In this document: one piece after another, positions 19,701 to 64,000 of the stretch
How the letters are laid out: each line of letters starts with the position of its first letter
Numbering within the stretch: the first letter of the stretch is position 1
Origin: Toxoplasma gondii ME49
Taxonomy: Eukaryota; Apicomplexa; Conoidasida; Eucoccidiorida; Sarcocystidae
Reading direction: 5' to 3'
NCBI RefSeq assembly: GCF_000006565.2
Contig: NC_031469.1
Span: 2,283,033-2,347,032 of the forward strand
DNA: 64,000 bases
Translations under genes and position numbers: made by a program
The notes under the pieces: generated by a model
The model's input: only the letters and a program-made list of their open reading frames with translations
Databases searched by the model: none
Told to the model about the DNA's origin: nothing

Positions 19701-20319
19701 GATTCATGGCTATGGGCGACAACTTGTTGGGTAATCTGTGAGATCAGCGCTACACGAGTAGCGGAGGTCCGGGGCAGTGGAACGGAGTTAGAAAGATTGA
19801 GAGTGTCGGTCCGGATCGATACGGTTTGGCTTAAGCACGCGGTGTAGCGTGCAAGAGCCACGGTGTCACCCAAGAGGAACTGCCAAAATACCGATACAGA
19901 ATATGGTGCCCACTACACAGGTTAGTCAGGGGTTTGTCGTCCAACACAGCACACTGGAATACGTCTGGAGCAGCAATGTCCTGGTGCGAAACGAGGCGGT
20001 AGTCCTACAACTGGAGGTCATTATTAGTTTCTGTCTGTTTCAGATGTACATCATCGTGTTTTGAGCGTCGCGCCTAGCGTTGCTTTCTCTTGTACATGAC
20101 CAGGTTTCAGCAGTAGGTGGCTATGAAGTCGCGCGCCACGACGGAGTCCACAGGGTGTTCCGATAAGAAGCGTACTATGCTTGCGGGTTTGCTCATCCAG
20201 CTGGGTGACAGGAAGACGTGGCTGCGTTCATGCTGCTTAGGAGTTGCTCGCACCTGCAGTTGGCTGTTAGTGTCACGTTGGATTACATCAGCTGAAGGCA
20301 GTACGCGGCTGCGACGCAC
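19701..20319. repeat. Repeat C, copy 1
   Basis: Near-identical to 21262-21880; its first ~300 bp also match 23918-24218. It contains a CAG-N9-GTAGG element at 20101-20117. Confidence 0.9.
20104..20112 (+). other. Putative 9-nt micro-exon
   Basis: CAG-GTTTCAGCA-GTAGGT; the second copy is 21665-21673. Pyrimidine content upstream is moderate. A second CAG lies inside the 9-mer. Confidence 0.25.
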
Positions 20320-20880
20320 GGTTCTTTCAGGCCCGTCTAAAGAGAGAGGGAGGGGTCGTAAGACGCGCTGCCATGTGTAACTGGACGAGTGTCAAATCGG
20401 ATAGAGCGTGTCGATTGCCGGCCGACGCCGCCTCTGGCAAGGCTCCTGTACTTGACAACGGTGGAACGGATTGTTGTGATACGCCTGATCCCATGAAGGA
20501 CTGAGCGGACCAGCGACTGCCGAGAGTCGTTGAGATAGAGAGGTCGTTACGGCTCTGTAAGTTTGTTCTGGACTTTTGTCTGCCTCCCAAATGCTGTTTG
20601 CGAGAGTGCCGTGTCGTTTTTTGTCTACTTTGCGGAACTAACGCGCGCCGGCAGTTTGGGACACAATGTCGGGTGCTGCGGGAGTGCTTTTGTTTTCCGC
20701 CATCGTGTGACGATAGTTTCGTTACGCCGATTGGTCCTGGGACGCGATGCCGCGCATGTCGATGACGCTTTCATCGTGTGGATGCTGAATAAAAGCGGCC
20801 CTCTGCGTTTCTGTCAGGGAAGGGCGGCAAGCGATTCATCGAGACTGGGTAAATGTTTATGTTTGTATCCTCGCTAATGT
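20320..20880. repeat. Diverged tail of repeat C
   Basis: Recognisably related to 21881-22110 and to 24530-24740 (shared stretches such as GCAAGGCTCCTGT and GATTGTTGTGAYACGCC) but far more diverged than repeat C itself. Homogenisation seems to have been limited to the adjacent segment. No intact gene is visible. Confidence 0.5.
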
Positions 20881-21880
20881 CGCTTCAATGAATAGGTCTT
20901 GTTCCGTCGGCGGACGTGTTTCGGGTAGATTCGCGGCTCGACAGCGCCCCACGCATAGTAGCTACTTCGGTAGGGCCACTTGCGTCCGAGTTCCTGGGAT
21001 GGTTGAAGCCTCGCGGCCGCCTTTGAGCAATCCAGCAGCAGTCGTGCAGCTGCTCGCATTCCATGGCCTGCCCGACATCAACATCGCGTTGTGTGGCATG
21101 CCGAACAGGCTGTAGGATACTTGTCACGCTATTGCATGCCTATTGGGCACCGGTGTCCATATCAGATGTAGAGACGTGGGGGAGCATCCTTTGCTTCTGG
21201 AGCGAATGGAGCCACGGGACGAGGACAGCAGCACTCTGTAGAGGTCAGGAGGATCCCGTTTGATTCATGGCCATGGGCGACAACTTGTTGGGTAATCTGT
21301 GAGATCAGCGCTACACGAGTAGCGGAGGTCCGGGGCAGTGGAACGGAGTTAGAAAGATTGAGAGTGTCGGTCCGGATCGATACGGTTTGGCTTAAGCACG
21401 CGGTGTATCGTGCAAGAGCCACGGTGTCACCCAAGAGGAACTGCCAAAATACCGATACAGAATATGGTGCCCACTATACAGGTTAGTCAGGGGTTTGTCG
21501 TCCAACACAGCACACTGGAATACGTCTGGAGCAGCAATGTCCTGGTGCGAAACGAGGCGGTAGTCCTACAACTGGAGGTCATTATTAGTTTCTGTCTGTT
21601 TCAGATGTACATCATCGTGTTTTGAGCGTCGCGCCTAGCGTTGCTTTCTCTTGTGCATGACCAGGTTTCAGCAGTAGGTGGCTATGAAGTCGCACGCCAC
21701 GACGGAGTCCACAGGGTGTTCCGATAAGAAGCGTACTATGCTTGCGGGTTTGCTCATCCAGCTGGGTGACAGGAAGACGTGGCTGCGTTCATGCTGCTTA
21801 GGAGTTGCTCGCACCTGCAGTTGGCTGTTAGTGTCACGTTGGATTACATCAGCTGAAGAGAGTACGCGGCTGCGACGCAC
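20881..21880. repeat. Repeat C, copy 2 (extended)
   Basis: Bases 20881-21562 match 23537-24218 (offset 2656), and 21262-21880 match 19701-20319. Copy 2 is therefore the only one carrying both halves. CAG-N9-GTAGG recurs at 21662-21678. Confidence 0.9.
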
Positions 21881-22332
21881 ATCTCGGCAAGCACCGTGTG
21901 AAAGGGAGGGGGTGTCGGGAAATGTAGGGATGTCGCCGTACGGGCCGGGTGTCGTGTTGATCAGCCAGTTTCAATTGCAAGCGGACAGCGTGTCGGGCAA
22001 GTCTCCTGTGCGAGTCGACAACAGCTTAATCGATTGTTGTGACACGCCAGGTCCTGCAAAGAAGAGACCGGACGCGCGTCTTCCCTGATTTGTCGAGACA
22101 GTGTTAACAGTTTTTTGTCTTGGTTTTTTGTCTCGCAGATGCTCTTTCCGGACTTGCTGTGTCGTTCGTTATCTGCTGTGAGGTCCTGGAGCGCGGGGAC
22201 GCATTCAGTCCGGTGCCATGACCTGTTTGAGCTGGGTCGGTGAGCAGCCATGCATCCCGGCGGCCAGTCCTAGTAGCTTGGTCTATTATGGGCTTTATTT
22301 TTATATCGAAGGACCCATGCATCGTGGATTAG

Positions 22333-22689
22333 ATATGTGCATGGGTGTCGAGCTGTGGAAGAGCTCCATGTCCTGACGTATACACGAGCGACCAAGGATT
22401 TTTCTTGATCCTGTGGAAACATTTGTATTTGACTAGAAAGAGGGGAAGCAAGTCGAGCAATGGCTCGGTACAGATCCAGTGGGGGAACACGCTGCTTTGG
22501 ATTCGCGGTGATCACTTGATAGACTTTTTTTTGACGTTCTTGCCGTGCTTCTCAACATCACGATCGCTCGTGAGAAGCGTGCTCGCACGCGTGCGCAGAC
22601 ACGGTTCGTATCGCGAGATGTTGACGGACCTCACAGACCGTACGCAGACTCAAGAGTTGGTGGACAGAATAAGGGGGGGAGCGTGCTAA
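22333..22689 (+). CDS. Candidate internal or terminal exon, ~118 codons (weak)
   Basis: Open from after TAG at 22330 to TAA at 22687, with no suitable ATG, so it would need an upstream exon. The translation has a hydrophobic patch (LIDFFLTFLPCF) followed by a basic, helical-looking C-terminus (LVRSVLARVRRHG, ELVDRIRGGAC). Not repeated elsewhere in the window and not recognised. Confidence 0.17.
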   Translation: MCAWVSSCGRAPCPDVYTSDQGFFLILWKHLYLTRKRGSKSSNGSVQIQWGNTLLWIRGDHLIDFFLTFLPCFSTSRSLVRSVLARVRRHGSYREMLTDLTDRTQTQELVDRIRGGAC

Positions 22690-23536
22690 GGGGATGATTA
22701 ATCAGGAACGTTTTCCGCGGTAGCGCGACTTGATTGACATCGACAGTAGCAGACTCTGTGACGAGCAACAGAGGATCGTTGCTCTTGTGGGACTAGAACT
22801 CGTGACGTGGTGTATATATGAGGGCTGTGTGCATATGCACATGGACGGCCAGCAGACTCACAAATGTGGCCCATCGCGACACGACAGAGCCAGTCATCGC
22901 GGATCGCGAAGCTCGGGATGTCATCTTGGAGAAATAAGTAAATGCTCTTATGGGCGTTTACCTGGCACCCTGGCCGTTGACACCAAGCCTTACACAAGGC
23001 ACTAGAGTATTTGTCGGAAAGCAATTGAAGGGGACAAATGAACAGCATCCGCACATTTGCAGCGCGTCACTTGTGGCCGACCGTTTCGGACGTATCATGA
23101 TGTTTGCCGTGCATATCCTCTAATTTTCCTCGTCCCGTTCCGCCCTCAGGTTGATCGCGTAGGCAGAACTCGTTTTCGAGTTAGGCAGCATACGAGGCCA
23201 TTGTTCGTCATCGGTGTCACTCATGTTGCGAGTGGGTAGTGCGACTCGGGTGGTAAAAGCATGCGTTGAGAAACAATTTGAGGACGCGAGGGGCCATTTT
23301 CTCGGTTAAGGATACTTGCTTATGGCCCTGGAGGGCTGCGAAGTCGGCATCATGAGCGACAGGCGTGACTGTTCATCGCCTTGCTTGACACTGTCGTCAA
23401 TGAAACACTCCCTGTGTCGACTGTCACCGGCATCATCAGCCCCCGCGAGTACGAGAACGACATGCATCTCGGTACACAGTACCCGAACAAAAGGGTCGGA
23501 TGTCCTCTCCGTGTGGTTTCACAAGCTGAGTGATGC
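22690..23536. other. Single-copy spacer
   Basis: No gene, repeat or RNA supported. Short ORFs only. Confidence 0.4.
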
Positions 23537-24218
23537 CGCTTCAATGATAAGAGCGTGTTTCGTCGGCGGACGTGTTTCGGGTAGATTCGCGGCTCGACAG
23601 CGCCCCACGCATAGTAGCTACTTCGGTAGGGCCACTTGCGTCCGAGTTCCTGGGATGGTTGAAGCCTCGCGGCCGCCTTTGAGCAATCCAGCAGCAGTCG
23701 TGCAGCTGCTCGCATTCCATGGCCTGCCCGACATCAACATCGCGTTGTGTGGCATGCCGAACAGGCTGTAGGATACTTGTCACGCTACTGCATGCCTATT
23801 GGGCACCGGTGTCCATATCAGATGTAGAGACGTGGGGGAGCATCCTTTGCTTCTGGAGCGAATGGAGCCACGGGACGAGGACAGCAGCACTCTGTAGAGG
23901 TCAGGAGGATCCCGTTTGATTCATGGCCATGGGCGACAACTTGTTGGGTAATCTGTGAGATCAGCGCTACACGAGTAGCGGAGGTCCGGGGCAGTGGAAC
24001 GGAGTTAGAAAGATTGAGAGTGTCGGTCCGGATCGATACGGTTTGGCTTAAGCACGCGGTGTAGCGTGCAAGAGCCACGGTGTCACCCAAGAGGAACTGC
24101 CAAAATACCGATACAGAATATGGTGCCCACTATACAGGTTAGTCAGGGGTTTGTCGTCCAACACAGCACACTGGAATACGTCTGGAGCAGCAATGTCCTG
24201 GTGCGAAACGAGGCGGTA
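23537..24218. repeat. Repeat C, copy 3 (left part)
   Basis: Matches 20881-21562 and stops abruptly after GAAACGAGGCGGTA. Beyond that point the sequence is only distantly related to the other copies. Confidence 0.9.
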
Positions 24219-24316
24219 CTCACACGCTCCGGGTGCATCATTACGTTCTGCCTTTCAAATGCATATCAATGTTATTCGAGACTCGACCGCCGTTAGTTTT
24301 TTGGCGTCGTGTTCAG

Positions 24317-24325
24317 GGTGAAACT
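24317..24325 (+). other. Putative 9-nt micro-exon
   Basis: TTTTTTGGCGTCGTGTTCAG precedes GGTGAAACT, followed by GTAGGT. It is the diverged homologue of the element at 20104, with a different 9-mer. Confidence 0.35.
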
Positions 24326-25695
24326 GTAGGTGGTTCGGATGTCGCAGAGCAGTGCTGAATTGTTGCGTTCTGATGAGCACGGTCCCGTGCTTGCTGGTTT
24401 GCGTATCCAGCTGGTGAACGAAGCAGTTGTTGCGGTCATCCCACTATGGAGATGCTCACAGCTACGTCCGCTGATGGTGTCACCCCGAATTACATCAGCC
24501 CGAGACAGTACGCTACTGCGTGGCACAGATCCATAAACACCGTGCGAAAAAGGGGGGCGTGCCGGGAAATGCGTTGATGTCGCCCTCTGGACCGGGTGGC
24601 GTTGATCACTGACAAATGTAAGCAGACATCGTCGGGCAAGGCTCCTGTGGCAGTCGACGACAGTGGAATGGACTGTTATGATACGCCAGTTCGTACAAAG
24701 AAGAGACAGGACGCGCGTCCTTCGAGAAAAGTCGAGACGGTGTTATGATTTTCTATGAATTCATTCTGGTATTTTGTCGGTCGCCGGGGGCGGTTTCCAC
24801 GTGCGGCGCTGCGTACAGTTGTTGCGTTGCCGATCTGTGCCGCAGTGACACGTCTGGGCGGGATGCCGTATTCTGCTCTGTCTCCGTTTGCTCCCGTCTA
24901 GTTGGTAGTTTCGTATCCATCGGATTGCCCGGTCGTTATGGAAATGCGTCAGTCGCATGCCTGGAAGCCGTGTAATTTCCCGCTTCCCCGTAGATTTCGT
25001 GGATATATGAGGAACCATCGAATTACCGATTACTACTGTGTCAGGCTAGCGTCAATTCTGAAAGGCTGGGGGCGGCTCTCGTCTCCCTTGAGCGCGCCTG
25101 GTCATTAGTGGCGAGATCGTATCTCTTCATGCTCTCGGCGAATATCGTGCTCCGTGTCCATATGTCACAGCTTGTAAGCTAATGGAAGGCAGGGCGCGTG
25201 GAGATTGCGATGACAGGGCGTTCGTGGGAGCGACAGAATGAATCAGGAGCATCCCTCCTCTACGATGAGAGGGGTGAAGGATGCTTGCAGACCGCCACCG
25301 CATCAGCACATTGCCGCCGGTGGGAAGGGGTGACGTCTTGGCGGACTCTACATCAGGGACATCCTCTGTCGTATTAAAGGGTGGGAAGGTGATGCGGCGT
25401 TCGCGAACGCTGAAAACAGTGTTTCGTGTCAATGCGACATGGCCTATAGGGTTGACCGTTTTCGTGAGTGTCGTGCAATGATGACGTGAGCATCCGAGAA
25501 ATAATAATGCAGACAGATCCCCACCGGACAGCTAGTATGCATCGTTCTCATTTTAACGATACCCCTTCGCAGCCCACTAAGGAATGAGCTGCCCCCTCGA
25601 CATATTGGACTCGCGACGGATGCACGCTATGCCATAAGCACCTGGTTGTGCGCCCACAGTCATCCGAACGTCTCCTTGGTCCTTCAATTACTCAG

Positions 25696-25704
25696 CGTGT
25701 GCCG
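25696..25704 (+). other. Putative 9-nt micro-exon
   Basis: CCTTCAATTACTCAG, then CGTGTGCCG, then GTAGGTAGTGAG. Confidence 0.38.
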
Positions 25705-25937
25705 GTAGGTAGTGAGAGTTTTGTGGCGCCGGAGTCAGCGCTCATTTGTTCCACAGTTTGTCAAACGTGTGCCCATGCTGCCAGCACCCGCGACAGCCTC
25801 AGTTCCTCATCACTCTCGGGTTTTCGGCTGACAAGCCAATTCAGCGGAGAATCATAAAAATGTTTTTAGTTGGCATCGCGAGTTTCTACAGCTCAAGATG
25901 GTATGGTGCTTGCAAGAAAGCCTCTCTGCGCAATGTG

Positions 25938-26772
25938 AAGGGACTTGCCTGCGTGTATTGTTCGACGGGAGGGTCTTTAACGGCACATCGGAGTCTGCCC
26001 GAGACTCTCTGAACGGGGATGGAGTACACTTGTGGCATCACATTCCTAAGAGGATGAGGCGATTGCGGGCGCTGCTGGCAGGCGTAGTAGTGTGCGGGCA
26101 AGGCTGTTTTGCGTCTGCGTCTTTCTGACTGTTAGCTCGCTCACTGTGGAGAGAAGCTTGGTTGTTGGTTTTACGACTGCCTTTGTACATTTCATTCGTT
26201 ATTCGATGGTCGTGATAGAAGTCGATGGATGTTTTGTGGAATTATGCCAAAGAATTAGATGTCGTGCCAAAAGCATTTAAGGTGATGCGCTCTGTGCTCC
26301 TTGCGTCTCGGTCTTCTATCTCGGCAAGCGCGAAGCGAGTGCTGCCATCTTCACCAGCCAACACAATGGGTTTAAGACACTTTGCATGTGTTGCTGTTAC
26401 CCGTACGCCGTTGATACTGCTGATATTTCGGTGTTGCAACCAGACTGTAGGCTATCAGTACATACTGATACGAGGACTGAAGCAGGGACGGCGCAGAGAT
26501 ATTACCAGAAATGGAAGCGACGCCGCGACCAGGAGCTAGGGGGCAGACCAATAGAGTGGAGAGCCATGCGGATGGGGCTGTGATCTGCTGAGCGGAGACG
26601 AATTTTGGGGTGTGTTTCCTGTTGTAGCGGGTTGCAGCGGTAGAGCACAATACTGCTATGGAGGGAGGAGGGACTGAAGGATACGATGTGCCGACTCGAG
26701 AAATATCTGCATGTTATTTTTTAGTATTGTAGCGGCGAAGAGGCAGTCAGGGGGCCATTGACGACGAAGCCA
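25938..26772. repeat. Repeat S, copy 1
   Basis: Matches 31861-32694 (offset 5923, ~99%). The first ~200 bp also match 28927-29137. Short ORFs are conserved only because the DNA is nearly identical. Confidence 0.92.
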
Positions 26773-27483
26773 GGCGGATCCATTTGTGTCCATGTGAACT
26801 ATGAAATTCTAGACTGTCGGAGAGAATGCGCCGAACGGTGTTGCCTTGGGAAACACCGTAGTGTGTGAGGCTTGCAGGATTTTGTGTAGCGGTCTGTAAC
26901 AGCGGATGCTGGAGTGCTGAGCTGCCGGGCAGTTATGCGGTGTTTCTAATGGCCACCGTAATGTCGGCTTCAGACTCAGCAGGTACGATGGCAGTGGCTT
27001 TGTGCTGACTCAGAATATGGCCGCGTTAATTCTGATGTAGTCCCGGAAGCCTGTAAACTCGCAGAGTGTCTTTGCTTGGTTGCGAAACGGCGGAACACAC
27101 CTTTTGTGATGTCGGTTGGGCTGACTTATATTCAAAGCGTCGCCTTAGAACCTCTACCCGAATTCTTTGATGAGTATGGTTTCTATCCCCTATCGGCTGC
27201 CGCGCATGCGTGTCTTGGGCACAGTGTCGCGTTGTGCTCGTCCAGCTGAAGACCGTATGCACAAATGAGAGGGTCCAAGCAGGTTTCTAGAAGCCTTAGC
27301 GTGCAGCGCCCGCGAAATCACTCAGTCACGAGTGCTGTCTTGCGAAATTTCTGGATGAGCTTGCGGCTGTCTGTCGGTGTTGTTTTTGGGTGCCGGCTTT
27401 AGTCGGGCACCTTGGGATGGTCCTGGTGTTACGGCGCCGATGGCGCACGACGTCATGAGGCAGACGCGTAAGCTCGTGGAAAC
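26773..27483. other. Spacer between repeats S and P
   Basis: No gene, repeat or RNA is supported in this 0.7 kb. Confidence 0.4.
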
Positions 27484-27816
27484 CCATGACTGCGAATTTG
27501 TGTGAGTCAGGCAGTGTTGTCCTCCCTCACCGCCGGTGTTGGCTCTGGCGTTTTCTGCGCAGTATGTGCGTGCATGGCAGTGGACGAGAGGGGCGAGGCA
27601 CGCCTGGCTCGCGATGGCCTCCCATGGGTCGGTTGAGGTCGTGCGTCCTGGCAAGTAGACCGCGAGTCCGTTGATAATGTGAGCGCCATCGCCTTCTGTC
27701 GGAGGCTGCAGCGTTTTTTGGATAATTGCGTGGTGAGGTGGCATGCACAGGTTTGCAGATTCAGTGTGAACTTGACCGGTATCGCCTTGAGTGCGGGTGC
27801 GTCCCATGTGGGCGAT

Positions 27817-28064
27817 GACGAGGCAGTGGGTTGTGGTAAGAGGTACTTTTTATTCAGGCGTTGTAATGTTTCCGATGATATGTGCACTCCGGCTGGTCGT
27901 TGGGTACACGTTGCCTCGACAGTGAGGGACGAGTCATTGGGGACTGCCGTTGGAATCGAACGCATTCGGAGTCGTATGGCAAGAGGTTGTCCATCCTTAA
28001 CTCGACATATCGGCATTTTGGCTTTTTTTTCGTTGCTCAGGCTGTAGGCAGAGATGGCTGGTAG
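27817..28064 (+). pseudogene. Diverged family fragment with KRYFLF block
   Basis: One frame reads KRYFLFRRCNV...PAGRWVHVASTVRDES; the end matches the frame ...VAQAVGRDGW. This weakly resembles the fragments at 35885 and 37365 (RLYC...PAHLQCALIRLVARDD, then AQAV). The parts are in different frames, so the copy is either spliced or broken. Copies with the same change occur in the repeats at about 30750-30997 and 32920-33167. The opposite strand also has a long frame here, so coding strand is uncertain. Confidence 0.2.
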
Positions 28065-28575
28065 CGTTCAACGTTGTGGAAGCGTCTCGGAAAAGAGACC
28101 GGGTGACTCAGAGCAAGTGTCGGAAGGGCAGCTGCGGTAGCGGCAGCCTGCGGGGGACACTGTCACCAGATTCTTGGTGCGATGTTTTAGGTCGAGTAGC
28201 AGGTAAAGCTGCCGGATCACGGGCTCTCCGAATTCGTATTATCGGGCGCGTTTGACACACGGACACAGAGCGGTGAATGTGGTGCCCGGGTTCAGTGCAA
28301 CATGGCAAATTCGTTAGGTGACACATGCAAGGAGTGAAGTCAGACTATCGGTGGAGTGTCCGAAATGTAGGAAAAGGCGATACGTGGTCACTTGACGGTC
28401 TGTGTGCATGAGCGTTACTTTGCTATGCATTGCAATGTTGCATGCCACACACATCGTCCGGGGAAAGAAGGGGCTTACTGACTACGTAGCCGGCGGGACT
28501 GGCTGCGAGCTGTCGAAGATTTTCTGGGTGGTGCTAAACTGGTGCCTTGCACCCTTCTGCTTTCTCAATGTTTAG

Positions 28576-28584
28576 ACTGCCGGC
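28576..28584 (+). other. Putative 9-nt micro-exon
   Basis: GCTAAACTGG branch-like site, then CTTCTGCTTTCTCAATGTTTAG, then ACTGCCGGC, then GTAGGTAGTGAAG. It is duplicated at 31509-31517. This is one of the most complete branch-tract-AG-donor sets. Confidence 0.42.
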
Positions 28585-28870
28585 GTAGGTAGTGAAGGGT
28601 TGGTGGTGCCGGGATCCAGGATCCTTGTTCGGACGGTTTAGCAATCTATATACGAACTGCAGCAGTGATGAGGGCGGTGTGCAGCTGTGATGCGCACGAT
28701 AGTGTAAGCACTCAGATCTGTCTGTGAAGGGTGAGACGCCGACAGCGATACGAGGATTGGAGGATTGAGGCGTACAGAGGGAGCAGGCATGCGGGAGTCG
28801 CGCATGGTGACGAGCCGCTGCAGCCGAGTATTCGTGAACATGTGGTCACCCGGTATCCGTGCTTCTGCAG

Positions 28871-28879
28871 ATCGAGCAG
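28871..28879 (+). other. Putative 9-nt micro-exon
   Basis: CCGTGCTTCTGCAG, then ATCGAGCAG, then GTATGC; duplicated at 31804-31812. The same 9-mer occurs at 36705 in unrelated flanks. Confidence 0.35.
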
Positions 28880-29137
28880 GTATGCCCTCGGCATGGTGCC
28901 ACAGAGTGAAGTGCTCAGGACAATGAGAAGGGACCTGCTTGCGTGTATTGTTCGACGGGAGGGTCTTTAACGGCGCATCGGAGTCTGCCCGAGACTCTCT
29001 GAACGGGGATGGAGTACACTTGTGGCATCACATTCCTAGGTGGATGAGGTGATTGCGGGCGCTGCTGGCAGGCGTAGTAGTGCGCGGGCAAGGCTGTTTT
29101 GCGTCTGCGTCTTTCTGACTGTCAGCTCGCTCACTGT

Positions 29138-30416
29138 TAGGCCGGTGGTCGTCATTTTTGTTGCTCTCATTGGTAGATGTTCTTTCCAGAATAGTGATTC
29201 CATCGAAGGTAGGTGGGTGTTTGGTAGGAATCGAAGTAAGACTCGTCGGGGATGTTTCTTACACGGCGCTAGATGGTCCCTGATTGTGGAGTTCTGTCTA
29301 CGCGGGCGAGATTCCTTTACGGACCGCTACGCTATTCGGCGCAATTTGTGTGAGGCTGTTGCCACACTGTGGTGTCGTTGCTTGTGATTGACTGCTGGTG
29401 TGCTGATTGTTAACGCGTTACAATCAGGTTGTAGGTCATCCGTTCATACTGGTTTGTAGCAGCAGGGATGTTGGAACAACGTAGCTACGGACGCAAGCGC
29501 GTTTGGCGATCCGGAATTGGACCGAACGTTGTTCGTCTAGGGAACCACAAGAAGAGGGTCGCTGTTTCACTGAAAACCGGGAGTGGTTTAAAGAATGAGT
29601 GTTTTGTGCTGGCAAGTCTTGTGCTTGATGAATAATGTTCATATTCGAGGAGCGCCGTTGTTGAAGGGAGAGACCTCAGTTTCACACTTATACAGGTAGA
29701 GTGTCGTGTGTCAGTTGATGAAGAGGGCTGACGTCAATTCCTGCTGTGGTTGTCGCACCAGATTATTCGCTCCATGGGTTTCGATATGCGCGGTGGCGTC
29801 GCGATATCATTCGGATGCTGTATGCCTGATTGGTATTGCCAGGTCGACGGGGTAAGACACCTGATGCTTTGAGTCGTCTCCAGCAATGGGTCCCGATGTA
29901 CAGACATCAACCAGCATCAGGCGGGTGACGCAGGCGGTTTCTCAAGGGTGTGCTGCGTCGAACCTGGCTGCAGAGTCTGCCGACGGCCAGAAATAACGCG
30001 CGTTGCTTTAACGTCGGAATAGCCGTCTGCTGCGTCTGCTTTTGTGGCGTTGTTTGGAATATAGTAGCACAACTATAGGCATGAGCAGATAGATGTCAAA
30101 ATCGTTCCCGTATTGGGTGACGCGTATCCCTCACAAGCGTAATGTCGCGTGGCTTGTTTCTGTAGGCTGAGACAGTACGCAGTGGCGATATCGGATCCGC
30201 TGCACGCGTTCTCATACCAATACGGGCGTCACCGACGATACGTTTTTTTCCTGCGGCTTGGGCGTCGTATTGGTTTTTGATGCTATGTTTTCGTGCGACT
30301 GCTGCGCTTGAGCGTACGCTAAGGCACGTATGGTCGTTGCATTTCCTGTTTTCCGCCTTGTTCGACGCACAAGGCGATACCGTCCGTCCACCCAACATGC
30401 ATAGACTCGTGGAACT
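29138..30416. other. Spacer between repeat P copies
   Basis: No gene can be supported. A minus-strand ATG ORF of 214 codons runs from 30740 down to 30096, entering this spacer from the repeat. Its counterpart in the other repeat copy ends differently, and it has no recognised features. A CAG-GTT-GTAGG site lies at 29425-29435. Confidence 0.4.
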
Positions 30417-32694: not shown

Positions 32695-32714
32695 NNNNNN
32701 NNNNNNNNNNNNNN
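32695..32714. other. Assembly gap (20 N)
   Basis: The gap joins the end of repeat S to the middle of a third copy of repeat P. Both flanks are multi-copy, so the join may be wrong or copies may be missing. Confidence 0.99.
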
Positions 32715-33509
32715 CGATGGCCTCCCATGGGTCGGTTGAGGTCGTGCGTCCTGGCAAGTAGACCGCGAGTCCGTTGATAATGTGAGCGCCATCGCCTTCT
32801 GTCGGAGGCTGCAGCGTTTTTTGGATAATTGCGTGGTGAGGTGGCATGCACAGGTTTGCAGATTCAGTGTGAACTTGACCGGTATCGCCTTGAGTGCGGG
32901 TGCGTCCCATGTGGGCGATGACGAGGCAGTGGGTTGTGGTAAGAGGTATTTTTTATTCAGGCGTTGTAATGTTTCCGATGATATGTGCACTCCGGCTGGT
33001 CGTTGGGTACACGTTGCCTCGACAGTGAGGGACGAGTCATTGGGGACTGCCGTTGGAATCGAACGCATTCGGAGTCGTATGGCAAGAGGTTGTCCATCCT
33101 TAACTCGACATATCGGCATTTTGGCTTTTTTTTCGTTGCTCAGGCTGTAGGCAAAGATGGCTGGTAGCGTTCAACGTTGTGGAAGCGTCTCGGAAAAGAG
33201 ACCGGGTGACTCAGAGCAAGTGTCGGAAGGGCAGCTGCGGTAGCGGCAGCCTGCGGGGGACACTGTCACCAGATTCTTGGTGCGATGTTTTAGGTCGAGT
33301 AGCAGGTAAAGCTGCCGGATCACGGGCTCTCCGAATTCGTATTATCGGGCGCGTTTGACACACGGACACAGAGCGGTGAATGTGGTGCCCGGGTTCAGTG
33401 CAACATGGCAAATTCGTTAGGTGACGCATGCAAGGAGTGAAGTCAGACTATCGGTGGAGTGTCCGAAATGTAGGAAAAGGCGATACGTGGTCACTTGACG
33501 GTCTGTGTG
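32715..33509. repeat. Repeat P, copy 3 (partial)
   Basis: Matches 30544-31339; homology stops after GTCTGTGTG. It keeps the GCTCAG-GCT-GTAGGC element at 33139-33152. Confidence 0.92.
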
Positions 33510-45709: not shown

Positions 45710-45848
45710 GGAGCGTGATGCGACAGGTGGAACCATGTTGTTGGATTAATACGCGTGCCTTGGGTCTTTGGCGTAGTCATTGGTGCAGGTGTCGAGTCGC
45801 GTGCTTTTCGCCGGGCGTTTTCCGGTGTCCTGCTGGTACATTTGTCAG

Positions 45849-50849: not shown

Positions 50850-51282
50850 TGGATCATTCGCGGCTGAGTGTGCTCCTACCTTGTTTCGTGCTGCACCTCT
50901 GTATATACCTCGTCTTCAGCAAGATCCGGTAGGTTACCAGGACATGGATGTATAAGGGTGTAACACGTGTTTGGGAGCGTTGGAAATATGTACACGGGTG
51001 GGGAGGTATGTGATCACGTCGTGCACCGTGGTGAGTTGGCATCGGAGCCGGCCGTGGCGGTCGTGTCGTTGACGGTATGCTGACATTGGAGAAGTATACG
51101 TGCAGGTAGAGGCATTTAGGCGCATGTGCGCAGGGGGGTTGGCGGCAGGCTGTAGCGTGAGGAAAGGCGGATGGGGCACACGAGCGTGTGCGATGTCGGG
51201 TGGCAGGTGATAAGAAGGATGTGTTGTGTAGGCACCCTTTACCTGATCTATATCCTAATGACGACATTGGGTTTGTAATCAG
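50850..51282. other. Spacer
   Basis: Long minus-strand frames of low sequence complexity (His/Pro/Thr-rich), with no recognised content. At the right end TATCCTAATGAC and TTTGTAATCAG form a branch-point and acceptor pair. Confidence 0.4.
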
Positions 51283-51544
51283 ATCTGGCGAGTACGGTCT
51301 TGTCCCGCAGCATCCGGTAGAGGGATTCACACGGACAAAAGGGAGCTCGCAAAGGTGTCCGACCAAAGTCTGCGTCCCGTGTTTTCATGGTGATGACTGC
51401 ATTTACGCGTGGACGGGCCTAATAGCCCTACGCCTCGGCGGTAGTACGATTAGTTGTGTTACAACGGTTCATGGTCGCCGTATTGTCGAAGCACTGTGGT
51501 TTGCGAAACTATCTCAGTTCGGTCTCGATGTTCTCTCTGCTTAA
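51283..51544 (+). CDS. Candidate terminal exon related to family B start motif
   Basis: After the acceptor at 51280-51282 it enters in the same phase as B1-B3 and starts SGEYGLVPQHP, where B1-B3 have RPEYARRMV, LQKYARRMV or LKEYARHMV. It continues with CVPCFHGDDC, AWTGLIALRLGGS and ends QFGLDVLSA, TAA. The shared acceptor, phase and E/K-Y pair suggest a diverged homologue; beyond that the similarity is weak. Confidence 0.28.
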
Positions 51545-53814: not shown

Positions 53815-53888
53815 GTTCTGCATGCCTGCCGTGTGTTTTGGTTTGCCATCCTAAACTGCTGCGTGTGCCTTCCCTCCGACTGGGGCAG

Positions 53889-54008
53889 TTCTATGGAAAA
53901 GGAGCGTTGTGCGACGGCTGGACGTATGTCGAACACTTCACAGGGGTGTCCCGGCCCTCTGTCTCTTTGATCGCGGTGGAGGCGTGCGGTTGCGTGCCTC
54001 GCGCCTGA
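53889..54008 (+). pseudogene. Orphan terminal exon of family B
   Basis: Identical in structure to 47893-48012 and 57309-57428 (FYGKGALCDGWTYV... TGA) but without an upstream family B exon: homology to the others begins only at 53815, just after unrelated sequence. It cannot be expressed as in B2/B3. Confidence 0.5.
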
Positions 54009-55232
54009 TGTTTTGGGGCGGTATTTTTTTAACATTTCGGCTCTCAAGGTCCTCTGCGGTGGGTCGAACGGGTTAGCCCAATGTTTTGTGGCCTGCGTAC
54101 ATTGCTGCGCACACAACTTGTGCAGCATCGAAATTTGTCGCGGCCGCCACCTAGCAGGCTACTAGCCCCCTCATGGCTGTTGCTGGTTTTCCTCTGAAGT
54201 GATACAAGAAGCGGTGCGAATGTGGCGTCCAGAACACATCTCACGCACGACGTTGTAGTTTTGGGCCGGTTGAGCCCACACAAGTGTAGGATCGCGAGAG
54301 ATTCATGATGGACTATCTGCGGTCCCGATGCCCTGGACAGGCATCCTGATGCATGATAGTCGAAGGTGGCAGTTGCAGCTTGCTTTTCTTTCTAGGGAAG
54401 GCGACTGTTAGTGGAATTGCCTGCGCAGCGGGTCGGCGCGAGGGGAATGTAGGGGAACAGTGGCACGGAGTTCGAGGGGTGGAGTGCAGTTTTCTGGTCC
54501 ATCGGAACTGCGCACATCCACTCAGGCTTCTTTGCGGGAGACACGCGCTTATCACGAAGCGAGCGCCAGGGGCGTGGAACTGGGTTGAGTGGGCCAAGTC
54601 GATGGCGTTTTTCTTGGCGGCTCTCCTGGAGCACACATGAATGTGCATTGGTTGGGAAAAAATAGCTTAGGGAGAAGCGAGGCGGCACTTGAACTTCATG
54701 AAAGTGTGACTGATTTCGCACTTCCTCGGGTGGCGCGTGGTCTCATTACAACGTGGCTGGTTTTCGTTCTGCCTTTGCTGGCTTCAGGGTGCAGGGGTAG
54801 GTGTTCAGAGCTGGCGGTGTTCGCATGGAGGCGTGCGAGACCATTGGGCTTCCCCGTGGAGAGGCTGTATGCGTGGACCGTGCGAGTGTGGCGGTTTGTG
54901 AGGGAATTCAGGACTACACGGCATAGACATCGATGTTGGCTGCAAACTGCAGCCGAATGGGGGGCAAGAGCAGTGACCAAGGCCTTCGTGCTTCAGGCAG
55001 GTGTTTACCACAGGTCAACTCACTTTCCATCGAAACTCGCATCAGCTGATGGGTGTACGCGCTTGCCGGGCCATTTTCACCGATGACGATTGACATTGAT
55101 GGATGGACAACTGCAGAGAGGTCCTGTCGTTGGTTGCATCTTGTGTGTGGTCGAGGATGTTGACAGCAGCAACACAGCAGCACCTGGTGTCTCGGATCAC
55201 GTGTTGGGGTTGGGAGTGCACGGAGGAGGGAT

Positions 55233-55338
55233 CGGACCCCTTTTTTGTTCAGAGCAGCGAGAGGAACGCCGTCGCGAGACATAAGTCGAGCACGATTGTT
55301 GCTCACTACTGTGTCGGAATTCGCGTTCATTTCCTGAT
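55233..55338. other. 106-bp insert in module delta
   Basis: Present here and at about 57987-58092, absent from copies 1, 2 (between 49233 and 49234) and probably 5. Its ends share GAT with the uninterrupted copies, so it could be an insertion with a 3-bp duplication or a deletion at 3-bp microhomology. It contains no ORF or terminal repeat. Confidence 0.75.
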
Positions 55339-56867
55339 TTACCCGAGACGTCGTTTTGCCGTTTGCTGCCTCAACTGGACCGCCCTCTCGGTGTTTGTGG
55401 GGGGACACAGGATGGTCGTCGCGCCATGAGGTCCGTGACCTCCGATGGTTTCCAGCTGCGTAGGGAGTGGCGGTTCTTCTGCTGGTGTAGTCCCTGACCC
55501 TCTGGCGTGAACTCCGTGTCTAGAAGGTTCGCAAGAAGTCTAGTCGTAGAAAGGTTCTGTTGTTTCATACACCTTAATTTGGCTTGGGAGTTAGCGCTGC
55601 TTGTATGGGCGCTGACATATATGGAGACCGCAATGGAAGTCGGTGGAAGGGGGGCAGCTGTGTGCGCGGAGGAGTCACGCTAGCAACGTTTTCATCCCAG
55701 CATCCACATTCATGGTCTGCGTTTACGAGCGCCTCGGAATTCTTCAGCTTGTTCGAGTATGGTTTGACAACCTGGTTGTTGTGGAACGCTTCGAATGAGC
55801 GGGCGGGATAGATAGTCGGTGTCATGTGACGAATCTTGCATTGAGTTCTTTGCCTTCGGTCGGCGACGTCGAGGGCGCCCTCCCATGGTGACACATGCCT
55901 TTTGTACGAGTCGCGAGAGGTGGTGTGAAGTGTCTTGTTACTTCGTGTCGTATACTACGACGAACCGCACGACGCAGACTGGTAGTAGAGGCGGAGGCGC
56001 ACTGCGTTGCAGTGACCTAGCGAGAAGAGATGCGCCTCTCCGCCGCGAGGAGCTGGCGAGTGCTTGTCCACTGTCATTCCCGCCGGACTGTGTTCATTGT
56101 TTTGCTCGTGTTGAGGGTTTGTCCCTACCTTGTCAGAGGAAGGAGCCCGCAGGCTATCTGCAATCGGATCCTGTTTCTGGTGTGTGTGCCTCGACTGGAT
56201 CGTTGTAGGGGTCCGCTCGTGTATCGCCCGCGGGTCGAAAAGACGGTGGTTTAGTTGCGAAGTGTGGGGCGTTGGCATGAGGCAGGCTGCGGAGGCGGGA
56301 TGCTAAACGCACTCGGAGTGCAGTCGCCTGCTGTGTGAGTTCGGAAATTAGTACGAACTTCTAGCATTGCCTCCTCCGAAGACGGAAACACGTAGAATCC
56401 GCTCCTCGACTTTGTTTAGAGACATTCGGACCCCGGCATCTCTTTGTCGCCCTTAAGGTCCCAAGATATTCTTGGTACGCTTACGACGGTAAGCAGATGA
56501 GTAAAAGGGTACTAGGACAGTTATGCGTGTATCAGGCTTGATTACAAGTTGCTTTAGCACTATTTATTTTCCCAATGGATTGAAACCGCCTTTATTGACA
56601 TCAGCCTGAAGTTGTACGCAAGCGTCACGTCATGCTCAATGGCGTTTTTCAGGCAGCTGGAGCCGACGCCGACGAAAAAGCATATGCTGGGCTGCACTTC
56701 GCGCCTGATCACGGATGCTGACTGCTGGCAGGGTTTCAGTGTGTTGGCAGTGCTTTCGCTCTGCAGAATAGGAAGGACTGTCAATTGATGAGCAGGCGTG
56801 GCTCCGGGAAAAATAGCCTTCAAATTCAACTCCATTTTTTTCGTCTTTGTCCTTCCTCTACTTTCAG

Positions 56868-57428
56868 GCTGAAAGAGTACGCACGTCACATGGTCATTTT
56901 CATCCAGGTGCTTCTGACAGGTCGAGCGCTGCAGGGACGTCCTAGCTATGGCCCTCCATCGTGTCTGGTCGTGGACGTCCCCGGCAGTTATTTGCAATTC
57001 CACCCGACACGCGTTCGAATTGAAAACTCGTGTGAAGGACCTTGGCGCCCGTGTTGGAAAAGTACGAGGGGGGCCTCGTTCTCGCGGAGTCAACGTGACG
57101 CAACGGTCACCACAGCATCATCTAGGATGGATCTTCCTTCCCGTCTCTCCTCAGATCGTGCATTTCGGTTGTATTCTCTACTCGAGCGTACGGGCACCGG
57201 TTCTGGGTCGGTTTCGTACCGGGGCGCCACTTGCGTTCTGCATGCTTGCCGTGTGTTTTGGTTTGCCATCCTAAACTGCTGCGTGTGCCTTCCCTCCGAC
57301 TGGGGCAGTTCTATGGAAAAGGAGCGTTGTGCGACGGCTGGACGTATGTCGAACACTTCACAGGGGTGTCCCGGCCCTCTGTCTCTTTGATCGCGGTGGA
57401 GGCGTGCGGTTGCGTGCCTCGCGCCTGA
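56868..57428 (+). CDS. Family B member B3 (two-exon core, uncertain ends)
   Basis: The main exon begins at 56868 after CCTTCCTCTACTTTCAG and reads LKEYARHMVIFIQVLL, GPPSCLVVDVPG, FHPTRVRIENSCEGPWRPCW, ATVTTASSRMD, DRAFRLYSL and SVSYRGATCVL. The terminal exon is proposed at 57309-57428 (FYGKGALCDGWTYV...VEACGC, TGA). The central segment IFIQVLLTG is hydrophobic. Upstream exons may lie at 56610-56720 (NGVFQAAGADADEKAY block). B3 is the least damaged copy in the window, but no initiator ATG or signal peptide was located. The antisense frame (57093 down to 56560) is also open and conserved; the codon-position bias against B0 favours the plus strand. Confidence 0.42.
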
Positions 57429-57633
57429 TGTTTTGGGGCGGTATTTTTTTAACATTTCGGCTCTCAAGGTCTTCTGCGGTGGGTCGAACGGGTTAGCCCA
57501 ATGTTTTGTGGCCTGCGCACATTGCTGCGCACACAACTTGTGCAGCATCGAAATTTGTCGCGGCCGCCACCTAGCAGGCTACTAGCCCCCTCATGGCTGT
57601 TGCTGGTTTACCCCTGAAGTGATACAAGAAGCG

Positions 57634-59244
57634 GTGCGAGTGTGGCGGTTTGTGAGGGAATTCAGGACTACACGGCATAGACATCGATGTTGGCTGCAAA
57701 CTGCAGCCGAATGGGGGGCAAGAGCAGTGACCAAGGCCTTCGTGCTTCAGGCAGGTGTTTACCACAGGTCAACTCACTTTCCATCGAAACTCGCATCAGC
57801 TGATGGGTGTACGCGCTTGCCGGGCCATTTTCACCGATGACGATTGACATTGATGGATGGACAACTGCAGAGAGGTCCTGTCGTTGGTTGCATCTTGTGT
57901 GTGGTCGAGGATGTTGACAGCAGCAACACAGCAGCACCTGGTGTCTCGGATCACGTGTTGGGGTTGGGAGTGCACGGAGGAGGGATCGGACCCCTTTTTT
58001 GTTCAGAGCAGCGAGAGGAACACCGTCGCGAGACATAAGTCGAGCACGATTGTTGCTCACTACTGTGTCGGAATTCGCGTTCATTTCCTGATTTACCGGA
58101 GACGTCGTTTTGCCGTTTGCTGCCTCAACTGGACCGCCCTCTCGGTGTTTGTGGGGGGACACAGGATGGTCGTCGCGCCATGAGGTCCGTGACCTCCGAT
58201 GGTTTCCAGCTGCGTAGGGAGTGGCGGTTCTTCTGCTGGTGTAGTCCCTGACCCTCTGGCGTGAACTCCGTGTCTAGAAGGTTCGCAAGAAGTCTAGTCG
58301 TAGAAAGGTTCTGTTGTTTCATACACCTTAATTTGGCTTGGGAGTTAGCGCTGCTTGTATGGGCGCTGACATATATGGAGACCGCAATGGAAGTCGGTGG
58401 AAGGGGGGCAGCTGTGTGCGCGGAGGAGTCACGCTAGCAACGTTTTCATCCCAGCATCCACATTCATGGTCTGCGTTTACGAGCGTCTCGGAATTCTTCA
58501 GCAATCCCAAGTACGCTTGTGACAACCGGGCTGTTGTGGAACGCTTCGAATGAGCGGGCGGGATAGATAGTCGGTGTCATGTGACGAATCTTGCATTGAG
58601 TTCTTTGCCTTCGGTCGGCGACGTCGAGGGCGCCCTCCCATGGTGACACATGCCTTTTGTACGAGTCGCGAGAGGTGGTGTGAAGTGTCTTGTTACTTCG
58701 TGTCGTATACTACGACGAACCGCACGGCGCAGGGTGGTTCCTATATCCTTGTATAAGTTGGCGGGTGATTTCTGTCTCTGTGTGGGTTCTCGGCCGTACG
58801 GGATGAGCCGTTCTCGAACCGGGGTGCCACGAACACTTCGCTGTTCTTCGCGTTGCAGCACAGTATGCAGGGGGGTTCGCGCTCTCGTGACGTGTCAGAA
58901 CAGCGTCAGATCTCGGAAGGATTTGTACAGGAGGAGTCATCTGTCTGGTGGCAAATGTAGCGAATCACATCTGGGGAAGACGGTCGCTCATCTTGAGGCC
59001 AGCAGTGTGCCTTCAGGCATTTGTCTGCTTCATAAGGACGACGGGGTCGTTGACGACTGAGGGGACCGTGTGTCGGCCCGAGGCTCGGTTCTGCGCGTCG
59101 ACGTTGCTTGTGATTTGTGGCACTCGAGCGAGTCGGGTGGTTCCGGTTCTTGCCAGAAGCGCATTGGGGAGTGACTGGTGCAGTCACATGTTCACCCACA
59201 TTCGGTGCATTGGGCACGTCGTGGACTCATATCGCAGAAAGTAG
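57634..59244. repeat. Mosaic repeat, copy 4
   Basis: Joins the beta/gamma border directly to the end of gamma (deletion scar at 57634-57647), then delta with the 106-bp insert (57795-58328), epsilon (58329-58735) and eta (58731-59244). Epsilon in this copy has a different 9-mer at 58502-58510. Confidence 0.9.
58502..58510 (+). other. Putative 9-nt micro-exon, variant cassette
   Basis: GAATTCTTCAG, then CAATCCCAA, then GTACGC. The four other copies of this module have CTTGTTCGA-GTATGG at 44116, 49643, 55748 and 62966. Flanks are near-identical on both sides. Confidence 0.45.
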
Positions 59245-61903: not shown

Positions 61904-62288
61904 GTGGTTACATTGTAATCCCGGGCAGAAAGGCAGTGACCCATCAGTCATGACAGAGTATCCACTGTTACCCTCTGAAGCTCATGGCTACACTTTAGCC
62001 GATGATGGGCTGACATCACTCTGTCACTTTAGACGCTCCCATGGGGACTCCGTGAAATTCGCGGCTACTCACACACACGCGCCAACCCTAACGCAATACT
62101 GCTTAATTGCCTGGGTCAAGGGCGTCCTCGACGCTCCTCACTCTCTACGCTCTGCTCGATTTAGGATTCTTCAACGCCTACGTGTCACGGTTTTTTTTGG
62201 TACTGGTATTTTCTTTCCTCCGATAGTATTTTTAGGTTTTCTGGGTTTAGGGTCGTTTTTTAGTGTTTTAGGGGTTTTTCGGGTTTAG
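61904..62288 (+). CDS. Last exon before the telomere-like tract (truncated?)
   Basis: Opens after CTGTTGCCGTGCAG in the same phase as the other exons. It reads WLHCNPGQKGSDPSV...EYPLLPSEAHG...SLCHFRRSHGDSVKFAA...QYCLIAWVKGVLD. From about 62190 the frame enters T-rich and TTTAGGG-like sequence and is translated as Phe/Leu/Gly-rich residues to the stop. The natural 3' end therefore appears to have been replaced by telomeric sequence. The block QYCLIAWV is reminiscent of QCALIRLV at 37365. Confidence 0.28.
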
Positions 62289-62555
62289 GATTAGGGTTTT
62301 TTAGGGTTTAAGGTTTTTTTTTAAGGGTTTAGGGGGTTTAGGGTTTTTTAGGGTTTAGGGTTTTTTAGGGTTTAGGGTTTTTTAGGGTTTAGGGTTTTTC
62401 AGGGTTTAGGGTTTTTTAGGGTTTAGGGTTTTTTAGGGTTTAGGGTTTTTTAGGGTTTAGGGTTTTTTAGGGTTTAGGGTTTTTTAGAGGGTAGGGTTTT
62501 TTAGGGTTTAGGGTTTTTTAGGGTTTAGGGTTTTTTAGGGTTTAGGGTTTTTTAG
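62228..62555 (+). repeat. Telomere-like tract, TTTAGGG plus TTTTTTAGGG
   Basis: It begins degenerate (62228-62335) and then becomes regular, alternating TTTAGGG and TTTTTTAGGG as a 17-bp unit repeated about twelve times to the gap. TTTAGGG is the telomeric heptamer of coccidia. The G-rich strand points rightward, as expected for a right chromosome end. Strict alternation with the decamer is unlike a simple telomerase product. Confidence 0.9.
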
Positions 62556-62575
62556 NNNNNNNNNNNNNNNNNNNN
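62556..62575. other. Assembly gap (20 N)
   Basis: Separates the telomere-like tract from a fifth copy of the mosaic repeat. A telomere facing a gap and then more sequence suggests two contigs joined wrongly or an internal telomeric block. Confidence 0.99.
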
Positions 62576-64000
62576 TGCCGTTTGCTGCCTCAACTGGACC
62601 GCCCTTTCGGTGTTGTGGGGGAACACAGGATGGTCGTCGCGCCATGAGGTCCCGTGACCCGATGGTTTTCCCAGCTGCGTAGGGAGTGGCGGTCTTTCTG
62701 CTGGTGTAGTCCCTGACCCTCTGGCGTGAACTCGTGTCTAGAAGGTTCGCAAGAAGTCTAGTCGTAGAAAGGTTCTGTTGTTTCATACACCTTAATTTGG
62801 CTTGGGAGTTAGCGCTGCTTGTATGGGCGCTGACATATATGGAGACCGCAATGGAAGTCGGTGGAAGGGGGGCAGCTGTGTGCGCGGAGGAGTCACGCTA
62901 GCAACGTTTTCATCCCAGCATCCACATTCATGGTCTGCGTTTACGAGCGCCTCGGAATTCTTCAGCTTGTTCGAGTATGGTTTGACAACCTGGTTGTTGT
63001 GGAACGCTTCGAATGAGCGGGCGGGATAGATAGTCGGTGTCATGTGACGAATCTTGCATTGAGTTCTTTGCCTTCGGTCGGCGACGTCGAGGGCGCCCTC
63101 CCATGGTGACACATGCCTTTTGTACGAGTCGCGAGAGGTGGTGTGAAGTGTCTTGTTACTTCGTGTCGTATACTACGACGAACCGCACGACGCAGACTGG
63201 TAGTAGAGGCGGAGGCGCACTGCGTTGCAGTGACCTAGCGAGAAGAGATGCGCCTCTCCGCCGCGAGGAGCTGGCGAGTGCTTGTCCACTGTCATTCCCG
63301 CCGGACTGTGTTCATTGTTTTGCTCGTGTTGAGGGTTTGTCCCTACCTTGTCAGAGGAAGGAGCCCGCAGGCTATCTGCAATCGGATCCTGTTTCTGGTG
63401 TGTGTGCCTCGACTGGATCGTTGTAGGGGTCCGCTCGTGTATCGCCCGCGGGTCGAAAAGACGGTGGTTTAGTTGCGAAGTGTGGGGCGTTGGCATGAGG
63501 CAGGCTGCGGAGGCGGGATGCTAAACGCACTCGGAGTGCAGTCGCCTGCTGTGTGAGTTCGGAAATTGGTACGAACTTCTAGCATTGCCTCCTCCGAAGA
63601 CGGAAACACGTAGAATCCGCTCCTCGACTTTGTTTAGAGACATTCGGACCCCGGCATCTCTTTGTCGCCCTTAAGGTCCCAAGATATTCTTGGTACGCTT
63701 ACGACGGTAAGCAGATGAGTAAAAGGGTACTAGGACAGTTATGCGTGTATCAGGCTTGATTACAAGTTGCTTTAGCACTATTTATTTTCCCAATGGATTG
63801 AAACCGCCTTTATTGACATCAGCCTGAAGTTGTACGCAAGCGTCACGTCATGCTCAATGGCGTTTTTCAGGCAGCTGGAGCCGACGCCGACGAAAAAGCA
63901 TATGCTGGGCTGCACTTCGCGCCTGATCACGGATGCTGACTGCTGGCAAGGGTTTCAGTGTGTTGGCAGTGCTTTCGCTCTGCAGAATAGGAAGGACTGT
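62576..64000. repeat. Mosaic repeat, copy 5 (truncated both ends)
   Basis: End of delta (62576-62792, with several indels next to the gap that look like low-quality sequence), epsilon (62793-63189), zeta (63186-63790) and the start of the family B upstream block to the window edge. Closest to copy 3. Confidence 0.9.

Follow-up and report, generated by a model that had tools for sequence, protein, structure and literature searches.

Exon lengths that keep the reading frame are typical of the micro-exon genes (MEGs) of schistosomes. These genes are the closest known kind to the array described here (PMC10526429; PMC4015677; PMC4350168), the likeness being one of principle with no kinship claimed, and schistosome genes at the host interface are reported to show accelerated evolution (PMC4350168). 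The array lies in a window of 64 kb (G000:C3:2283033-2347032) that ends at the contig end and represents the right end of a Toxoplasma gondii chromosome, apparently chromosome II, in an ME49-like assembly. Gene-poor DNA beside the telomere there holds dozens of exon candidates of 3 or 9 nucleotides (nt), and the region from 17.9 to 59.3 kb is, judging from its sequence, very probably the body of one giant, telomere-directed micro-exon gene headed by a member of family B. Schistosoma mansoni MEGs have many very short exons between long introns; the array has short candidates with splice-like borders that may be of this kind. Unlike in S. mansoni, the candidates are nearly all either 3 or 9 nt long, they sit in tandem genomic repeats that would contribute one heptad each, and the genes, from a different phylum, point to the telomere and carry a family B head.

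By similarity and name, the head gene belongs to the family B (FamB) membrane proteins, most of which are described as having a signal peptide, one transmembrane domain and highly variable C-termini, and as located at chromosome ends (PMC9498087 section 2.5). FamB proteins in the databases stop within or soon after the genomic read-through or, in the case of P0001, a predicted exon, whereas the gene in the window would continue into candidate micro-exons. The chromosomal setting can be likened, by description, to that of the TgTASL and sat350/sat680 repeats, which likewise have an orientation and are flanked toward the centromere by a border gene (PMC4008256 section 6; PMC9498087 sections 2.1-2.4). 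Apart from that border gene, TgTASL regions are held in the published account to lack genes and to be largely silent (PMC4008256 section 6), whereas the repeats of the window carry phase-0 exon candidates. Among open-access papers judged by title and opening of the abstract, on topics including short exons, families B and C and subtelomeric splicing, none on Toxoplasma micro-exons was found.

A preliminary description of this DNA had reported a recurrent plus-strand CAG-N9-GTANG element and read it as in-frame micro-exons. All nine of the coordinates that it quoted prove to be the first base of a 9-mer flanked by YAG and GTANG, and the signal is stronger than it had stated: CAG-N9-GTANG occurs 65 times on the plus strand of the window and twice on the minus strand, and YAG-N9-GTANG 73 times versus 2, far above the one-strand means of 4.2 (maximum 11) and 6.7 (maximum 15), respectively, in 60 windows simulated with a first-order Markov model. 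The exact nine-base spacing also held up, k = 9 giving the 73 versus 2 sites in a scan of spacings from 0 to 60, where the runner-up on the plus strand was k = 3 (23 versus 6). The 73 raw sites are inflated by copies and form 47 BLAST clusters across the whole window; a stricter filter on flank identity, applied to 17-64 kb, leaves 42 versus 1 sites for k = 9 and 16 versus 3 for k = 3. Elements of the two sizes are called N9 and N3 below; near copies were removed before de-duplicated counts, and 3-nt sites lying within a 9-nt site were left out of the 3-nt tallies. While its 9-nt elements stand, the preliminary description had missed the 3-nt elements, the 3+9+9 heptad order, the family B gene that heads the array (16494-17220) and the fact that other chromosome ends show the pattern too. 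A zero-length exon or recursive-splicing site was considered and rejected, GTANG at k = 0 giving 5 plus-strand versus 3 minus-strand sites with no spike, and a spacing scan with GTGNG donors showed no size spike.

Five of 28 chromosome ends were examined, each in part, namely the window's own and four others (50 kb each) picked because pattern matches had already appeared there; an extended stretch of one of them, C8R, was added after the first five-end counts and is included only in later tallies. In C4R the spacings k = 19, 25 and 15 had 24, 17 and 16 raw sites, but these stem from copies of a satellite and shrink to 4, 5 and 3 once near copies are removed. Among de-duplicated sites of the five ends, a pyrimidine tract (at least 10/16), as previously noted for the 9-nt elements, precedes 67% of 150 N9 sites versus 17% of 546 sites at control spacings (k = 10-40); the corresponding figures are 39% for 77 N3 sites and 19% for all 6843 YAG.

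The 9-mers behave as codons in a single frame. Counting raw copies and the extended C8R, phase 0 contains 1 stop in 732 codons, compared with 22/488 and 32/488 in the other frames. The 42 de-duplicated 9-mers of the window give 0/126 versus 5/84 and 7/84, and the de-duplicated set of five ends 0/450 versus 16/300 and 24/300. Codons formed by the 3-nt elements include no stops (0/105), and 82/105 encode A, T, V, L or I. Frame-keeping of candidate exon length is seen in the size spikes at 3 and 9, in the near stop-free phase 0 and in the phase-0 donor of the head.

The elements are ordered in units consisting of a 3-nt element, 400-620 bp, a 9-nt element, 150-340 bp and a second 9-nt element. 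One 3-nt and two 9-nt elements occur per genomic repeat of about 1.5 kb in the first half of the array, and the second half has mostly 9-nt elements. The head and the array candidates of the window are as follows, with the predicted residues in brackets.

16494-16687, plus: family B head exon 1, hydrophobic signal-peptide-like N-terminus, donor GTAGGA at 16688, phase 2
16998-17220, plus: family B head exon 2, hydrophobic segment, ends ...KC in phase 0, donor GTAAGC at 17221
17967-17969 (A), 18533-18541 (QGP), 18808-18816 (LHE), plus: unit 1, 3+9+9
19565-19567 (A), 20104-20112 (VSA), 20292-20300 (LKA), plus: unit 2, 3+9+9
21109-21111 (A), 21665-21673 (VSA), 21853-21861 (LKR), plus: unit 3, 3+9+9
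22637-22639 (T), 23150-23158 (VDR), 23440-23448 (PPR), plus: unit 4, 3+9+9
23765-23767 (A), 24317-24325 (GET), 24499-24507 (PET), plus: unit 5, 3+9+9
25171-25173 (L), 25696-25704 (RVP), 25892-25900 (LKM), plus: unit 6, 3+9+9
25532-25534 (L), plus: extra 3-nt candidate within the span of unit 6
26444-26446 (T), 26974-26982 (TQQ), 27246-27254 (LKT), plus: unit 7, 3+9+9
28041-28043 (A), 28576-28584 (TAG), 28871-28879 (IEQ), plus: unit 8, 3+9+9
29428-29430 (V), 29843-29851 (VDG), 30166-30174 (AET), plus: unit 9, 3+9+9
30974-30976 (A), 31509-31517 (TAG), 31804-31812 (IEQ), plus: unit 10, near copy of unit 8
32367-32369 (T), plus: unit 11 fragment, 3-nt exon candidate alone, with an assembly gap at 32695-32714
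33144-33146 (A), 33630-33638 (IEA), 33916-33924 (TEN), plus: unit 12, 3+9+9
34537-34539 (A), 35085-35093 (AQS), 35379-35387 (LLH), plus: unit 13, 3+9+9
36162-36164 (A), 36705-36713 (IEQ), 36858-36866 (MTR), plus: unit 14, 3+9+9
37641-37643 (A, donor GTGAGC), 38165-38173 (AQA), 38445-38453 (LSV), plus: unit 15, 3+9+9
39248-43528, plus: start of the mostly 9-nt-only region
39248-39256 (TVR), 39884-39892 (EAP), 40104-40112 (ELP), 40911-40919 (PPP), plus: 9-nt candidates
40222-40224 (3 nt), 40441-40449 (9 nt, SFE), plus: candidates with a weak pyrimidine tract
42055-42063 (VTR), 43273-43281 (ADL), 43520-43528 (LLS), plus: 9-nt candidates
44116-44124 (LVR), 44975-44983 (PRV), 45238-45246 (EAG), 46615-46623 (PAI), plus: 9-nt candidates
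44505-44516 (GTEL), plus: possible 12-nt exon within 44116-49651
47452-47460 (APK), 48792-48800 (AEG), 49050-49058 (LVD), 49643-49651 (LVR), plus: 9-nt candidates
50378-50380 (G), 59238-59240 (K), plus: 3-nt candidates in 50378-59240
50920 (QDP), 51283 (IWR), 52463 (DIE), 52758 (NPI), 53459 (ATF), 54788 (GAG), plus: starts of 9-nt candidates
55046 (LMG), 55748 (LVR), 56605 (PEV), 56868 (AER), 57800 (LMG), 58502 (QSQ), plus: starts of 9-nt candidates

Complete units number 39 in the first five-end set, with 38 distinct heptads, and 44 once the C8R extension is included, with 43. Position 1 of these 43 heptads is A in 22, T in 8, V in 7, I in 3 and L in 3, and hence always one of these five residues; position 5 is L in 28/43 and I in 4/43, and positions 3, 6 and 7 are mostly polar. 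Residues of the set LIVMFA occupy 73/86 of positions 1 and 5 combined. When a 44th heptad is admitted, which is the same 9+9 pair with a weaker second 3-nt candidate, the count becomes 75/88, compared with a best value of 59 in 50,000 within-heptad shuffles. The C8R extension lists nine 3-nt elements outside 9-mers (L, I, A, I, I, V, A, L, A) and the heptads IVDTLET, VAANLET, AIMHVEA and LGDDENP, in which position 5 is L, L, V and once E. Coiled coils are characterized by hydrophobic residues in alternating 4-3 spacing, and hydrophobic positions 1 and 5 of a heptad yield this spacing.

The two-exon gene that stands before the array (16494-17220) is annotated in other strains as family B protein. 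Its translation matches P0001 ('Toxoplasma gondii family B protein') with an E value of 1.2e-73 and 96% identity over 90% of the query, and the junction between exons 1 and 2 agrees with that annotated in P0001. Hydrophobic stretches were recognized by eye in both exons, and a Pfam scan of the joined head returned 0 families. Homologs of exon 2 occur at 20 places in the genome; 19 of these are on chromosomes, none farther than 250 kb from an end, and all but one of the 19 point to the nearby telomere. Fourteen loci were read, the window and 13 others (those outside the set being C787, C6 3154712, C11 178189, C1, C12 7471972 and C13), and in all 14 a phase-0 GTANG donor directly follows a Cys that is invariant across the 14 sequences. 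The frame stays open for 9-105 codons past this donor. Mean pairwise identity, which is.46-.68 over the last 60 nt of exon 2 and.72 over the donor, falls to.53 and then.44 in the windows that follow and to.29-.38 from +30 on. P0001 likewise leaves the genomic read-through at the invariant Cys. A donor at this residue suggests that the 'highly variable C-terminal end' published for family B members (PMC9498087 section 2.5) is read from an intron. The predicted protein P0006 (Hammondia) continues with AEEVCTGG after the conserved Cys instead of the usual read-through, perhaps through another splice at the same donor. A marginal internal family B match in C14 (E 0.04) contains a stop, and a 12-bp tandem repeat (6 copies, 16121-16192) lies just upstream of the head in the window. 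At the C6 left array no head was recognized in 16 kb, and the N9 count there is 1 versus 2.

Raw N9 sites directed toward and away from the telomere number 61/2 at the window's end and 49/1, 43/8, 29/0 and 49/0 at the four others; after de-duplication these become 42/2, 37/1, 30/1, 19/0 and 22/0, the eight opposite-strand sites of C9L being reduced to one. Most alignments between C8R and the window, which have diverged arrays in common, are at 71-84% identity. The element recurs in C4R within a 724-bp repeat, where 16 sites are nearly identical and usually spaced by 724 bp; in the window it recurs within a 333-bp repeat. Two extended patterns, CAGGCTGTANGC and YAGN9GTAGGTRGT, were searched genome-wide and both cluster at chromosome ends: within 250 kb of an end 37/38 and 29/30 matches, respectively, point toward the telomere, compared with 13 versus 15 and 7 versus 7 elsewhere. 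These orientation tallies include the window's own sites, and matches on unplaced contigs were dropped (15/81 for CAGGCTGTANGC, 7/51 for YAGN9GTAGGTRGT and 1/20 for family B). A genome-wide search for the same spacing, proposed in the preliminary description, thus found it again at other ends but gave no clear overall excess. YAG-Nk-GTANGY occurs on both strands 5030 times for k = 9, 4739 for k = 8 and 4622 for k = 10, a surplus that does not exceed some 300-400 sites, and reading the pattern backwards as a control gives more matches than the pattern itself (8463 for k = 9); enrichment of the motif is therefore local.

Comparison of repeat copies indicates that the content of the elements diversifies fast while most of the splice-like borders stay. 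In alignments on the plus strand, 100 bp or longer, whether inside one of the five ends or from one end to another (excluding C4R below 16 kb and C3R beyond 48 kb), mismatch in surroundings, N9 and fixed border positions was.202,.389 and.044 at 70-80% identity,.077,.315 and.017 at 80-90%,.033,.192 and.036 at 90-96%, and.012,.123 and.000 at 96% or more, so that the ratio of N9 to surroundings rises through 1.9, 4.1 and 5.8 to 10; since pairs share sequences, these values and the codon counts given next are indications and not formal tests. At 96% identity or more, 48/48 elements are present in both copies. Changes in N9 codons between copies of at least 90% identity are non-synonymous in 47/48 cases, the single synonymous change comparing with 6.8 expected. 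For copy pairs of at least 92% identity in 17-62 kb, including partners beyond 62.5 kb, N9 stands at 62/261 versus 315/19352. Sites 35082 and 36702 illustrate the pattern, with almost identical flanks and quite unlike 9-mers. A MAFFT alignment of 14 units (2 gapped at the element) places the 3-nt element in the best conserved 15-column window (0.75); second place (0.63) goes to the border of the first 9-nt element, tied with two element-free windows. Diversifying selection or a mutational process focused on exons would each explain the change in the interior, and the data do not separate them.

In the gene model that we favor, exon 1 of the head would supply a signal-peptide-like start and exon 2 a membrane segment with an invariant C-terminal Cys, transcription would run toward the telomere through the array, and exon 2 would be spliced in phase 0 onto a long chain of 3- and 9-nt exons. 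Each repeat of about 1.5 kb would add one heptad, composed of a single residue (A/T/V/I/L), xxx and usually Lxx. Together the heptads would form a coiled-coil rod, to which the second, mostly 9-nt half of the array would add a further variable part. Because all of the 3- and 9-nt exons are in phase 0, any subset would join in frame and exon choice could vary freely. The reading of the 9-nt elements as in-frame exons of a telomere-directed transcript, already put forward in the preliminary description, is supported by strand bias, exact spacing, pyrimidine tract, the phase-0 lack of stops, the kept borders around a hypervariable interior and the matching donor of the head. We infer that the elements are spliced and translated, that the product is anchored in the membrane and folds as a coiled coil, and that its diversity is selected for.

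Several observations weigh against this model. Neither a terminal exon nor a poly-A site was found; a suggested acceptor motif occurs in only one of the five ends, although the tails of C4R, C9L and window positions 11.4-13.5 kb align. Nor was a larger exon conserved between units found: stop-to-stop frames of at least 25 amino acids (aa), taken from 16 kb on, gave 1582 tblastn matches, none outside DNA-level repeats, and the best matches between ends were stop-broken or spread over several frames. Exons of 3 nt are hard for the spliceosome to handle, and only 45/108 three-nt sites belong to complete units, with 23/105 three-nt codons giving residues outside A/T/V/L/I. Branch-like sequence, which had been listed among the features of the sites, was not borne out as a general feature, N9 sites lacking enrichment of CTRAY between -45 and -9 (10% of N9, 18% of N3 and 7% of controls). 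The N9 matches 27824, 30757 and 32927 are pyrimidine-poor and probably due to chance, as may be the sole stop-bearing N9 site (C8R 4480433). One weak family B match (G000:C13:220312-220545; 1/19) is directed away from the nearer end. In P0001 the Cys is followed by another sequence from farther downstream, longer than the elements, and a protein search found no annotated protein carrying the heptads, so that gene models give no direct support for micro-exons. Among diverged copies, borders in the 90-96% class are no better kept than surroundings (.036 versus.033), elements occur in both copies in just 95/156, 20/27 and 26/38 cases in the three lower classes, and synonymous changes at 70-90% identity are near expectation (3 versus 4.4 and 13 versus 17.6, or 16 versus 22). 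Finally, the window may be a TgTASL region, and these are published as mostly silent or gene-free save for the border gene (PMC4008256 section 6). One speculation drawn from these reports is that expression may be limited to particular stages.

Among the alternatives, the strongest is that the elements serve the splicing of long transcripts that are non-coding and directed toward the telomere, with 9-mers that hold no protein information. This would account for the strand bias, the pyrimidine tract and the kept borders and would suit regions described as gene-poor and mostly silent (PMC4008256), yet it is improbable, leaving unexplained the sizes 3 and 9, the lack of stops in phase 0 only, the heptad pattern, the non-synonymous excess in young copies and the fact that the array starts with a coding gene whose donor is in phase 0. 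We consider it slightly less probable again that the arrays are relics of a once micro-exonic gene family decaying in silent heterochromatin. The segments are copied, 61/156 elements of the 70-80% class occur in only one of two aligned copies, and the cited literature offers little transcript evidence (PMC4008256 section 6; PMC9498087 sections 2.2, 2.5). However, fixed borders differ by 0-4% where surroundings differ by up to 20%, and stops are nearly absent, both of which call for recent or current constraint. A DNA-level motif for recombination, chromatin or satellite maintenance that merely resembles splice signals would fit the location of the elements in tandem repeats and satellites, such as the 16 near-identical C4R sites, but is very improbable as it provides no reason why a pyrimidine tract should lie upstream, why GTANG should look like a donor and leave its fourth base free, why there should be a codon phase or why a coding head should have a matching donor.

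Beyond the single micro-exon gene proposed for the window, it is possible, if somewhat doubtful, that much subtelomeric repeat DNA, satellites included, constitutes the intron and micro-exon bodies of a giant gene family that builds membrane-anchored coiled-coil rods, one heptad per repeat. Repeat amplification, exon-focused change and in-frame exon choice would then generate diversity in an unrecognized variant-protein system. If the gene model proposed for the window is right, chromosome ends called gene-poor and mostly silent would contain genes that rank among the most finely divided on record, annotation artefacts would account in part for the variable tails of family B, and Toxoplasma would possess a protein family that evolves fast and escapes both gene models and short-read mappers. 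It would also offer a strong test case for spliceosomal definition of 3-nt exons.

Elements of other sizes were also observed. A CAG-N12-GTAGG element at 44502-44522 has GC in place of GT as donor in its copy at 56134. C9L (oriented positions 21394-33163) may have exons of 6 nt (SR, SG), preceded by strong pyrimidine tracts and in three cases spaced 588 bp, near the 9-nt elements LPL, PPS and SPS. Upstream of the head, N9 sites and repeat alignments point to a further feature of the window.

2131-11858, plus: candidate for an older array, preceding the family B head

It begins with a 333-bp tandem repeat at 2131-6896, in about 14 copies, of which at least 7 carry CAG-N9-GTANG and form one cluster; the repeat units may themselves be exon carriers. 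Further N9 sites follow at 6955, 8781, 9330, 9442 and 11847. The DNA at 10.1-11.8 kb is similar to the C4R tail, and that at 11.4-13.5 kb aligns to the tails of C4R and C9L. A 1.9-kb segment with a minus-strand frame of 162 aa is duplicated at 99.6% (221-2110 and 13196-15085), its first copy adjoining an N gap. At the other end of the window, TTTAGGG repeats (62284-62555) and a 20-N gap are followed by 1.4 kb reaching to 64000 that is a 99.1% copy of 55357-56781 and probably a misplaced contig or assembly artefact; 2 of the 73 YAG-N9-GTANG sites (62963 and 63820) sit inside this copied stretch.

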